A DNA stretch of 64,000 nucleotides from NCBI RefSeq assembly GCF_001433995.1, contig NZ_AZCX01000005.1, positions 1 to 64,000 of the forward strand, read 5' to 3'. Below the pieces are notes generated by a model. The model saw only the letters and a program-made list of their open reading frames with translations, had not been told where the DNA came from and did no database searches. This document shows, piece by piece, positions 17,835 to 21,014 of the stretch (its first letter is position 1; every line of letters starts with the position of its first letter). The translations under genes were made by a program, and so were the position numbers. Origin of the DNA: Secundilactobacillus kimchicus JCM 15530. GTDB lineage: Bacteria > Bacillota > Bacilli > Lactobacillales > Lactobacillaceae.

Positions 17835-18950
17835 CTAGCACTGGCAATTAACATCACAGTCATCAAAGTCGTCCAAAAACATGTTGGCCTTTTTGTATTG
17901 CTGTGTGACTTGGGGATTAATTGTCATACGAAGCCGGGCTAACAGTTCTTCTGCCAGCGGGGCGAACCGTTGGCGGTATTTATAAATATAGCAAAGTACG
18001 ACATCATCGTGAGTCACTTGTGGACCAATCAAAAATACATTTGGTGACTTGGTTGATTCGTCCATTGCGGTTAGTAGTGGGCGGTTGGCGCGAATGTCAA
18101 ACAGGGAACTGACAAGAGGGCTCTGAGAGGCCGCAAAGCCAGTTGCAAAAATTGGCTTTGTTTGTGAAATGGCAGTTGATGAATCGGCAAAAGTCAGTTT
18201 GAAAGCGGTTGGTTTTTTCTTAATGGCAACCAGTTGTTTATGAGATTCAACGTGAATCAAATCAGCGTACTTTAAGTATCGACCGATGGTAAAGGTTGAC
18301 AGTCGTTTGCTAGGGTCAGCCGCCTTTGATTCAAGACCGCTTTCAGTCGTGTAAATGGTTGTTGGAATCCCCCGCTTGGCAAGGTTGATTGCAACGTCAA
18401 AACCAGCCTCATTGCCACCAATTACAGTTTGCATTTGGTCGGAAAAGCGGTTATAAGTTTGAATATCGACGTAGTGAATGCCGTAGTTATTGCCTGGAAT
18501 ATCTGGTCGATAAGGGTATGAAAAATCGCCAATACCCACAAAGACATACTGGGCTTCAAGTATTTGAGACGAGGAAAGAATCAATTCAAAGTGGTCTTCG
18601 ACGGGGAAGATTCTGTCGACTCCCGTGTGTTGTAAGACCGGTAAATGACTGAGTTTACTAACTGCTCGAAGATAGCTTGCGTACGCTTTGCCAGACGGAT
18701 GTTCTGAGCTGATAGAATACGCGGGTGAAGTATCGGGAGTAATGGCATTGAGGTCTGGGGCCCCAAATCCGTTAGTAGTAAAGGAGGGGGAAATGAAGTG
18801 TGTCTCCGGATTCCAACTCTCAAATGAATGACCAATGGTCTCTTTTTCTAGGATTAAAAAATCGTTAATCCCGTAGTTTTGAAGTGCTACTCCTAAGCCG
18901 ATTCCTGCCGGTCCGGCACCAATAATGACAATAGAATGTTGATCGTTCAA
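17835..18950 (-). CDS. FAD/NAD(P)-binding oxidoreductase, zinc-regulated operon
   Basis: This 371-aa flavoprotein has an N-terminal FAD motif VIIGAGPAGIGLG, a second dinucleotide motif IGGNEAGFDVAINLAKRG (~residues 170-190), and FATGFAAS before the C-terminal part, as in CzcO/FMO-like or YpdA-like proteins. The C-terminus ends in an acidic, cysteine-bearing tail (DDFDDCDVNCQC) that could bind metal. TTG 18950 is chosen: AGGAAG lies just upstream, and its TTGA overlaps the TGA stop of the Amt-like gene, implying translational coupling. The substrate is unknown. Confidence 0.8.
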   Translation of the reverse strand: MNDQHSIVIIGAGPAGIGLGVALQNYGINDFLILEKETIGHSFESWNPETHFISPSFTTNGFGAPDLNAITPDTSPAYSISSEHPSGKAYASYLRAVSKLSHLPVLQHTGVDRIFPVEDHFELILSSSQILEAQYVFVGIGDFSYPYRPDIPGNNYGIHYVDIQTYNRFSDQMQTVIGGNEAGFDVAINLAKRGIPTTIYTTESGLESKAADPSKRLSTFTIGRYLKYADLIHVESHKQLVAIKKKPTAFKLTFADSSTAISQTKPIFATGFAASQSPLVSSLFDIRANRPLLTAMDESTKSPNVFLIGPQVTHDDVVLCYIYKYRQRFAPLAEELLARLRMTINPQVTQQYKKANMFLDDFDDCDVNCQC

Positions 18951-20062
18951 AATGCCGCTTCCTTTCGTCTGGATAAGATAAGTATTTTTATTATTTTGAT
19001 GAGCCCCAAACAAACGAGAGTTCCAAGAAGGGTGATGAGAATTGTTACAATTAGAGTTAACCCTTCAACCTCGGCGAATTTTAAACCGCCAGAAAGTAAA
19101 CCAGTGGCACCGGCCTTGTTAACCGTCGGCGTTGCGAACAAAATTAAGCCAAGTGTGCCAACAAGGCCGCCTATCCCGTTAATTCCGAATGAATCAACTG
19201 GATCGTAAAAGTAAGTGGAGTCTGCTAACAGGTCAGTGACATAGTGACAAATCAGACCGCTGATTAACGTGACGATGAGCATTGATGGAGTTGAAACATA
19301 AGCGACTAAGGCGGTACTCGTAACGAGGCCACAAATAATGCCGTTGTACAAAGTGCTGGAATCCAAGGACAGTCCCAACCGACTGCCACTCGTCCAACCA
19401 ACGACGGCGCCAATAGCAGCTGTTAAAGTATTAATGACAATTAACGGACCATGGTTTTGAAAGGCGCCAGCAGGGGCTAAGTTAAAGCCAAGCCAGCCGG
19501 TTAAAATAAAGAGTGTTGCCACGTAGTTTAATAGCGGACTATCACGTGGCAACGGAGGTTTGGTATTTCGCATAAAAAACGACAAAATGAGACTTGTGAG
19601 TCCCGCGGTTAAGTGCACAACCAGTCCGCCGGAAAAATCTAATGCGCCTAGCCTATATAAAAAGCCGTTCGATGACCAGATTAGATTAGCTAGCGGCGCA
19701 TAGACAAAAAATGTCCAAAGGGGGATGAAGATGATTAGGAATTGCCATTTAATCTTTTGAACGCTGGTCCCAACGAACATAATGAGCGCATACAAATAAA
19801 AACATAGTTGTGATAAAACTGTGATGGTTGGTTTGAGAGTGGTCAAATTAAGATTGAGAAAACTAAATTGAAACGACTCAATGTTGCCAAAGAACAACCA
19901 GCAAGTGATGCCACAAAGTATGGCGGCAGTCATTGTTGTCAGGTGAGTGGATGATTCACTATTAGCGTACGCGTTGATGTACATGACGGGGACAAAGAAA
20001 ATCATGGGAATCATGATCAATGAACAAAGTAAAATGAAGTTATTATCCAAGCAAAGGCGCAC
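18947..20062 (-). CDS. amt: Amt-family channel lacking the second pore histidine
   Basis: The ~371-aa membrane protein has about eleven helices of the Amt/Mep/Rh ammonium channel family. The first signature, LDFSGGLVVHLTAG, retains the Asp and first pore His (His168 in E. coli AmtB). The second, normally DVFGVHGVGG, reads DSFGINGIGG, so the partner histidine (His318) is Asn (AAC). It is shorter than the usual 400-450 aa. The start is uncertain: GTG 20062 touches the GGAGGT, and TTG 20050 is 13 nt from it. No PII (glnK) gene follows. A Zur-like box lies upstream, so zinc rather than nitrogen probably sets its expression. Confidence 0.8.
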   Translation of the reverse strand: MRLCLDNNFILLCSLIMIPMIFFVPVMYINAYANSESSTHLTTMTAAILCGITCWLFFGNIESFQFSFLNLNLTTLKPTITVLSQLCFYLYALIMFVGTSVQKIKWQFLIIFIPLWTFFVYAPLANLIWSSNGFLYRLGALDFSGGLVVHLTAGLTSLILSFFMRNTKPPLPRDSPLLNYVATLFILTGWLGFNLAPAGAFQNHGPLIVINTLTAAIGAVVGWTSGSRLGLSLDSSTLYNGIICGLVTSTALVAYVSTPSMLIVTLISGLICHYVTDLLADSTYFYDPVDSFGINGIGGLVGTLGLILFATPTVNKAGATGLLSGGLKFAEVEGLTLIVTILITLLGTLVCLGLIKIIKILILSRRKEAAF

Positions 20063-20072
20063 CTCCGTTGTT

Positions 20073-20093
20073 AAATAGTAATTGTTACGATTT
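20073..20093 (-). promoter_or_regulatory. Zur-box-like operator of the amt-flavoprotein operon
   Basis: Plus-strand arms AAATAGTAA and TTACGATTT are separated by TTG. On the minus strand this contains TCGTAACAATTACTA, close to the Bacillus Zur core TCGTAATNATTACGA. A -35 TTGACA lies at 20125-20120, placing the operator just downstream of the -10 region. Its twin is at 20867-20887. Confidence 0.75.
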
Positions 20094-20236
20094 AGAATTA
20101 TTCTCCTTGGCTAGATAATTGTCAAGGTTATTTTGAAAAATATGAGTAAATACGGATCTAAAACAGCCCAATCGCCTCACGACGGATAACTTGTCACCTT
20201 GTTAAACATTCTGAATCTGTGGGATTGTAACCGAAT

Positions 20237-20315
20237 AAAAAAGTGCTGTTATGAGACCACCAAAAATCAAATAATTTTACTTGATCTTTTGGCAGCCCCA
20301 ATTGAGCACTTTTTT
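20237..20315 (-). terminator. Possible long-loop terminator
   Basis: AAAAAAGTGCT (minus strand 5' arm, 20315-20305) pairs perfectly with AGCACTTTTTT (20247-20237). The loop is ~57 nt, which is long for a terminator. It follows the rpmF-like two-gene unit. Confidence 0.45.
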
Positions 20316-20347
20316 GGGGAGTGGTGACGGTTAGGTCACGGTATGGA

Positions 20348-20656
20348 TTAATTTGTCCCGTTAATAAAGGCATCCATCGCATTTTGATCGACTGAATTGA
20401 TGATGAACGTGACTTGATCAACATTAAAGTTTTGAGTATCAATATCGACGACTTGGCCGTTATGAGAGAAACGGGTTCTGAAATCTGCTTGAAGATAGCC
20501 AAGCAGTGAAACAAATAGTAGAATCGCCCGTTGATCACCAAACGTGATTTCAACGGCTTGGCTTGAACCATCATACCGGAGGATAGCGTGGGGGAGTCCA
20601 TAGCGGTTAAAGAGATGATTGAAGCTTGTTAAAACGAGTTGGTCTGAGTAGTTGAT
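20348..20656 (-). CDS. Uncharacterised ORF downstream of the L32 paralogue, non-AUG start
   Basis: An open frame of 102 codons reads NYSDQLVLTSFNHLF, then RYGLPHAILRYDGSSQAVEI, and ends MDAFINGTN. Its composition is protein-like, unlike the overlapping frame. No ATG, GTG or TTG occurs in frame before near its end. The best candidate is ATC 20656, placed 7 nt (a run of seven C) after AGGAGGT, which itself overlaps the rpmF stop. Either AUC is used or the start was mutated. No family is recognised. The same Zur-like promoter should transcribe it. Confidence 0.5.
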   Translation of the reverse strand: MNYSDQLVLTSFNHLFNRYGLPHAILRYDGSSQAVEITFGDQRAILLFVSLLGYLQADFRTRFSHNGQVVDIDTQNFNVDQVTFIINSVDQNAMDAFINGTN

Positions 20657-20669
20657 GGGGGGGACCTCC

Positions 20670-20846
20670 TCAGTACTTAGGTTTGATAACTTGGTGGCCG
20701 TGATACAAGCCTGATGGTGAGATGTGGTGGCTCAGCACGTATTCATTGATCTGTGGATCCCAGTGAACTGCTGGTGTGGATAGTTTTTGGTGGTTTCGCC
20801 GACTACGTTTTTTAGTTTTAGAGGTTCGTCTGGCGGGGGTAGCCAT
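20670..20846 (-). CDS. rpmF: Ribosomal protein L32 paralogue without zinc cysteines
   Basis: The 58-aa product starts [20 protein letters not shown], the L32 N-terminus, but has no cysteine at all. The four zinc-ribbon cysteines of ordinary L32 (CPxC...CxxC) are absent. Such C-minus ribosomal paralogues replace zinc-binding copies during zinc starvation and are controlled by Zur in many bacteria (established for L31, L33, S14 and others). ATG 20846 follows AAAGGAGGACATAATCCT. The Zur-like operator at 20867-20887 supports this role. The product is too short to be noticed by length-based gene finders. Confidence 0.9.
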
Positions 20847-20866
20847 AGGATTATGTCCTCCTTTCT

Positions 20867-20887
20867 AAATAGTAACTATTACTATTT
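20867..20887 (-). promoter_or_regulatory. Zur-box-like operator of the rpmF paralogue
   Basis: AAATAGTAA and TTACTATTT are perfect 9-bp inverted arms around CTA. Fourteen of the bases outside the centre match the amt operator, with identical spacing. The promoter reads -35 TTGACA (20923-20918), 17-bp spacer, -10 TATTCT (20900-20895), so the box covers the transcription start. The two promoters also share AGCCAA in the spacer. Confidence 0.8.
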
Positions 20888-21014
20888 GAGCTTTAGAATA
20901 AAACTTTGGCTGGAATTTGTCAATTTAAAATTGCAATTTACTCTGGCGGATATTAAAAACCGCTACTTTGTTAGGGTCGAAGTAGCGGTTGTGTCGAATG
21001 ATTAGGGATGACCA

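Follow-up and report, generated by a model that had tools for sequence, protein, structure and literature searches.

The window analysed here, a stretch of 64,000 nucleotides from Secundilactobacillus kimchicus JCM 15530, lies on a 149-kb contig with no plasmid signs in a genome of 2.59 Mb. Inspection of its minus strand reveals a cysteine-less paralogue of ribosomal protein L32 followed by a small open reading frame (ORF) of 102 sense codons, which runs from 20656 to 20348 and ends with a TAA stop at 20350-20348. A preliminary description of this DNA had reported at this site a frame behind the L32 paralogue without any ATG, GTG or TTG start, and this was borne out, the first such codon in frame being codon 94 when counted from ATC. 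The position numbers given there are correct, but the strand, left unstated, is the minus strand; on the plus strand the same site has many stops in frame. From stop to stop the small frame extends over 127 codons (20731 to 20348). The features of the locus, from promoter to hairpin, are listed below.

20895-20923, minus strand: promoter-like sequence TTGACA-17-TATTCT upstream of the L32 paralogue (consensus scan, 10/12)
20867-20887, no strand assigned: Zur-type box AAATAGTAATAGTTACTATTT, just 3′ of the -10 element (pattern search)
20857-20864, minus strand: Shine-Dalgarno (SD) sequence AAAGGAGG of the L32 paralogue (sequence)
20670-20846, minus strand: cysteine-less (zinc-independent) ribosomal protein L32 paralogue, 58 aa (PF01783, E 8.6e-17; TIGR01031, E 1e-15)
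20664-20670, minus strand: SD sequence AGGAGGT of the small ORF, one base shared with the L32 stop (sequence)
20657-20663, minus strand: C7 tract forming the gap between SD and start (sequence; missing from all relatives read)
20654-20656, minus strand: ATC codon where all relatives read have an ATG start (alignment to the G005 and plasmid loci)
20348-20656, minus strand: 102-codon ORF, hypothetical protein of the WP_024624166 family (sequence and homology)
20237-20315, minus strand: terminator-like hairpin AAAAAAGTGCT...AGCACTTTTTT at the operon end (fold of 20225-20330)

The base common to the two genes is the final A of the L32 stop codon (TGA, 20672-20670), and the 7 nt between AGGAGGT and ATC are filled entirely by the C7 tract. 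With this spacing AUC is, as had been proposed, the best-placed start of the frame. The local mRNA fold near the start is unremarkable (z -0.71). The hairpin behind the ORF (-39.5 kcal/mol, z -7.65) is very stable and much longer than a usual terminator.

The gene family and its Zur-type context

The window protein matched a family of plasmid-encoded proteins (genome search, E 3.5e-12; tblastn, E about 1e-10 to 5e-10), with 31-34% identity over 96-100% of the length. The plasmid homologues come from 24 records of Lactiplantibacillus, Pediococcus and Levilactobacillus, where most carry the annotation 'hypothetical protein' (WP_024624166, for example), the operons being hosted by Lactiplantibacillus plantarum, Pediococcus damnosus/inopinatus and Levilactobacillus brevis. 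Four other genomes of the bacterial family also carry a homologue, namely G005 of the same genus and three more. Within Secundilactobacillus the distribution is patchy, with the ORF present in 2 of the 15 genomes. G005 is very likely Secundilactobacillus malefermentans, for in both G005 and S. malefermentans DSM 5705 a contig of 8,180 bases bears a plasmid-type element that encodes the same protein.

The codon-level comparison indicates that the small ORF is a real protein-coding gene of an undescribed family. When it was aligned with the plasmid gene over 97 codons, frame 0 scored +168 by BLOSUM with no stops, whereas the other two frames scored -63 (13 stops) and -84 (20 stops). The differences at the three codon positions were 52/42/67. 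Within the plasmid family, dN/dS was 0.34-0.38 (about 0.35), which points to constraint at the family level. The protein-coding status suspected earlier is thus upheld, and the homologues are not frame-disrupted throughout, though two plasmid copies are broken: the extra copy of NZ_CP013754 carries a frameshift, and a remnant in a Lactiplantibacillus carotarum plasmid is both truncated and frameshifted. These copies show that some hosts can do without the gene.

Other searches added little. In Pfam and NCBIfam the window protein was without a match, and its relatives had stray matches only (DUF1955, E 0.0066). Scans of genome contigs, viral contigs and phages with the window protein alone returned nothing, as did a DNA search of plasmids with the window sequence. 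An order-wide profile search yielded no more convincing homologues, the matches at E about 0.01 being partial and often with stops, and in a family-wide L32 search the loci with a parsed L32 gene, all of them on one strand, showed no such downstream ORF except in the known plasmid-type operons. Our literature search found no paper on the WP_024624166 family.

The AlphaFold2 (AF2) model of the AUC-started protein, made from a thin alignment, has a compact alpha/beta fold (pLDDT 78, pTM 0.69). As its helix 1 spans residues 5-18, a later start would be predicted to truncate the fold. The sequence search against solved structures gave chance-level matches only. In fold comparison the best match was the PulL periplasmic domain (Z 6.5, rmsd 3.3, 78 aligned), and the best Foldseek E was 0.06; because these are common alpha/beta arrangements only, no function was read from the fold. 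From its operon setting we guess that the protein serves zinc-starved ribosomes as an accessory factor, perhaps in assembly or storage.

The homologue comes directly after a cysteine-less L32 in the four other genomes and in those plasmid operons that were read. The plasmid order is rpmF (L32) - ORF - rpmG (L33) - rpsN (S14), usually with genes for a 'putative metal homeostasis protein', for an amidase and for a zinc-binding ABC protein behind it; the rpmG/rpsN neighbourhood is a matter of operon context and not a property of the WP_024624166-like protein. Behind the window ORF, rpmG and rpsN are absent and the operon stops at the hairpin; rpsN2 is found elsewhere in the genome. The plasmid genes for L32, L33, S14, the amidase and the zinc-binding protein look like a mobile kit for zinc starvation; it is carried at high identity on fermentation plasmids of several genera, and IS elements lie near it in Pediococcus and L. 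brevis.

The Zur-type pattern AAATNGTAANNNTTACNATTT occurs twice in the window against 0.04 expected, and the box of the L32 paralogue is a perfect 21-bp palindrome with free central bases right behind the promoter. When up to two mismatches were allowed, 10 sites were found genome-wide, and the reversed control gave 0. The neighbours of these boxes are zinc ABC transporter genes (znuABC-like), a Fur-family regulator (zur-like), an S14 paralogue (rpsN2-like), a gene for a zinc-binding lipoprotein with an amidase-like gene, and a second cysteine-less L32. The Zur regulon of Lactobacillaceae comprises znuABC, zur and rpsN2 (PMC3616900). Since the sites match this regulon, the plasmid operons share the same box about 42 nt 5′ of L32, and the housekeeping L32 (C1:142098) retains its zinc cysteines (CPNC...CPNC), we strongly infer that Zur controls the L32-ORF operon. 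Zinc limitation, suggested beforehand, is supported as an apt condition for testing translation of the ORF.

Two further observations concern the other genes with such boxes. The second cysteine-less L32 (C1:58932) is 69% identical to the one in the window and has its own Zur-type box (2 mismatches) with no small ORF behind it. The second box of the window (20073-20093) stands before a two-gene operon (17835-20093 with the box), one gene encoding an Amt-type transporter and the other a YpdA-like flavoprotein. The other 14 genomes of the genus contain nothing closely matching the flavoprotein, and it would be unusual for Amt to be controlled by Zur.

The ATC codon and the C7 tract

ATG at this position in relatives had been named in the preliminary description as speaking against its reading, and AUC as a conserved start is not supported. 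An ATG stands at exactly the position of the window ATC in each of the 15 homologue loci read, although several of these loci are near-identical and represent few independent types, mainly a plantarum/Pediococcus type and an L. brevis type. The start-site alignment is ungapped from codon 1 (MEFSDQL versus I(AUC)NYSDQL in the window), and the relatives have SD-like AGGAG/GGGAG sequences 7 nt 5′ of ATG where the window has AGGAGGT. Because ATG stands at the aligned site in every locus, the AUC is a substitution, and the simplest history is an ATG to ATC change on the lineage of the window, whose species is represented by one genome. Conservation lends no support to AUC itself, as no relative uses it. 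The AUC is the best start of the frame but a derived one, and it may be a damaged start. Nor does the intact frame prove use, because the first stop arose only after a median of 22 random neutral substitutions (about 7% divergence).

AUC starts had been called very rare, and we agree, yet they are documented, in rnhC of Listeria (PMC13068326) and infC of Streptomyces (PMC5472188). Streptomyces sigR starts with GTC (PMC5472188), and in Staphylococcus aureus infC starts with AUA, cvfC1 with AUU and ccpN with AUA, with an extended SD (PMC13009471). In these other bacteria, Listeria rsbW mutants included, AUA, AUU and AUC starts function at a reduced rate (PMC13009471, PMC13068326, PMC5472188); a Listeria rsbW reporter with an ATT start gave almost no product (PMC13068326).

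We looked for similar starts in the genus. In Secundilactobacillus, infC shows a conserved ATA behind GGAGGTGA. Its start region reads GGAGGTGAATGACCATAGCAAAC in 14 of the 15 genomes; in G005 it reads GGAGGTGAATAACCATAGC, the upstream ATG being lost with none left near the SD. Since ATA is conserved while G005 has no such ATG, the comparison indicates that infC most likely starts with AUA here as in S. aureus, and the genus therefore probably already uses at least one AUN start. A second AUC-started gene was sought in the window genome in the form of rnhC, and no clear rnhC was found.

The C7 tract is the sole run of seven or more C or G in the window, where by our own estimate a few would be expected by chance at 47% GC. 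No ATG, GTG or TTG occurs between the SD and C7, or 5′ of C7 in the reachable frames. Because the tract lies outside the frame and no such codon is reachable upstream, a change in its length would alter only the spacing between SD and start. Of the two effects of C7 slippage that had been suggested, the one on spacing would be possible and the one on frame is not supported; we rejected frame slippage at C7 as a candidate for want of a usable start 5′ of the tract.

Interpretation and rival explanations

We consider it probable, with some reserve, that the small ORF is an accessory gene for zinc starvation in which AUC has replaced AUG, and that it is still weakly translated by SD-assisted initiation or re-initiation. 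When zinc is scarce, Zur would leave the box at 20867-20887, and the cysteine-less L32 and the 102-residue accessory protein would be transcribed together as a two-gene operon up to the hairpin at 20237-20315. The second gene belongs to a family that travels with genes for zinc-independent L32, L33 and S14, its ancestral AUG having presumably been replaced by AUC in the lineage of the window. The initiator tRNA would then act at AUC to give translation at a reduced level, aided by the SD of 7 nt, and ribosomes that have just finished L32 a few bases 5′ could re-initiate there. Re-initiation is known to be boosted by an SD and lowered by excess IF3 (PMC2268962), and initiation at this AUC should likewise be IF3-sensitive.

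Alternatively, the ATG to ATC mutation may be a recent loss of the start, leaving the gene effectively silent and in early decay with its frame still unbroken, which we regard as somewhat unlikely. The ATG in 15 of 15 relatives speaks for it, as do the patchy occurrence of the family, the broken copies in NZ_CP013754 and the L. carotarum plasmid, and the rpmG and rpsN genes that were lost, or never present, behind the window ORF. It is opposed by the 102 intact codons and by an SD that is perfect and well spaced. That the resulting codon still initiates weakly is a further but weak point against it, as 6 of the 9 one-base neighbours of ATG (GTG, TTG, CTG, ATA, ATT and ATC) can initiate to some extent (PMC12350097).

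The change from AUG to AUC might instead be adaptive, such that a weak start coupled to L32 termination would keep the accessory protein at a low, IF3-dependent ratio to L32, with the length of C7 tuning the SD spacing between strains; we think this quite unlikely. If true, it would represent a regulated non-AUG start within a Zur operon.

A sequencing or assembly error at C7 or at the start, with ATG in the true genome, appears very unlikely. Such an error would be favored by the single genome read for the species and by the homopolymer adjoining the site, but it requires a base substitution rather than the length error usual at homopolymers. Changing the number of C residues neither makes an ATG nor brings an upstream ATG, GTG or TTG into frame, and the assembly is rated 99.96% complete.

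Least credible of all, and in our estimate hardly probable, is an L32-ORF fusion by programmed frameshift or readthrough (at TAC TGA G, or by C7 slippage), by which a start codon would be unneeded: the frame is indeed open from 20731 and overlaps the L32 end, with an SD-like sequence at the L32 stop, but that SD sits after the shift site and not before it, and because the ORF is in +1 relative to L32 in the window and at offset 2 (-1) in the plasmid operons, where both an ATG and an SD of its own follow the L32 stop, there is no conserved recoding relation.

Returning to the putative accessory gene, its analysis matters in several respects. Gene finders restricted to ATG, GTG and TTG would miss the family member in the window, and the locus ties the zinc-starved ribosome to a protein family on fermentation plasmids that is itself undescribed. 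Should the AUC function, one more AUC-started bacterial gene would join a short list, and a natural pair of AUG and AUC starts would be available for IF3 control; if it does not, the locus would be an example of start loss.

Comparison with known systems

The AUN-started genes of Bacillota (S. aureus infC and ccpN with AUA and cvfC1 with AUU; Listeria rnhC with AUC and infC with AUU) resemble the small ORF in combining a strong SD with a weak start and no AUG alternative. However, those starts are conserved and several were demonstrated by experiment, whereas here all relatives have AUG and initiation at AUC is putative. The ATG-to-ATA and ATG-to-ATT mutants of Listeria rsbW (PMC13068326) are similar in that, of two closely spaced genes, the second has a weak start in place of a canonical one; these mutants were selected in the laboratory and measured, while the change in the window is known from one genome only.

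With the Zur-regulated zinc-independent ribosomal proteins (rpsN2 and others; PMC3616900, PMC6103462) the locus shares a Zur-type box and a cysteine-less paralogue alongside a zinc-ribbon housekeeping copy, and it differs from them by the extra non-ribosomal ORF, which is undescribed in the papers found. The closest likeness is to the WP_024624166 family. The window copy differs from it in having ATC in place of ATG, in lacking rpmG, rpsN and the genes for amidase and zinc-binding protein behind it, and in lying on the 149-kb contig without plasmid signs, but the position after a cysteine-less L32, the Zur-type box, the length, the alignment at the start site and the 31-34% identity are common to both.
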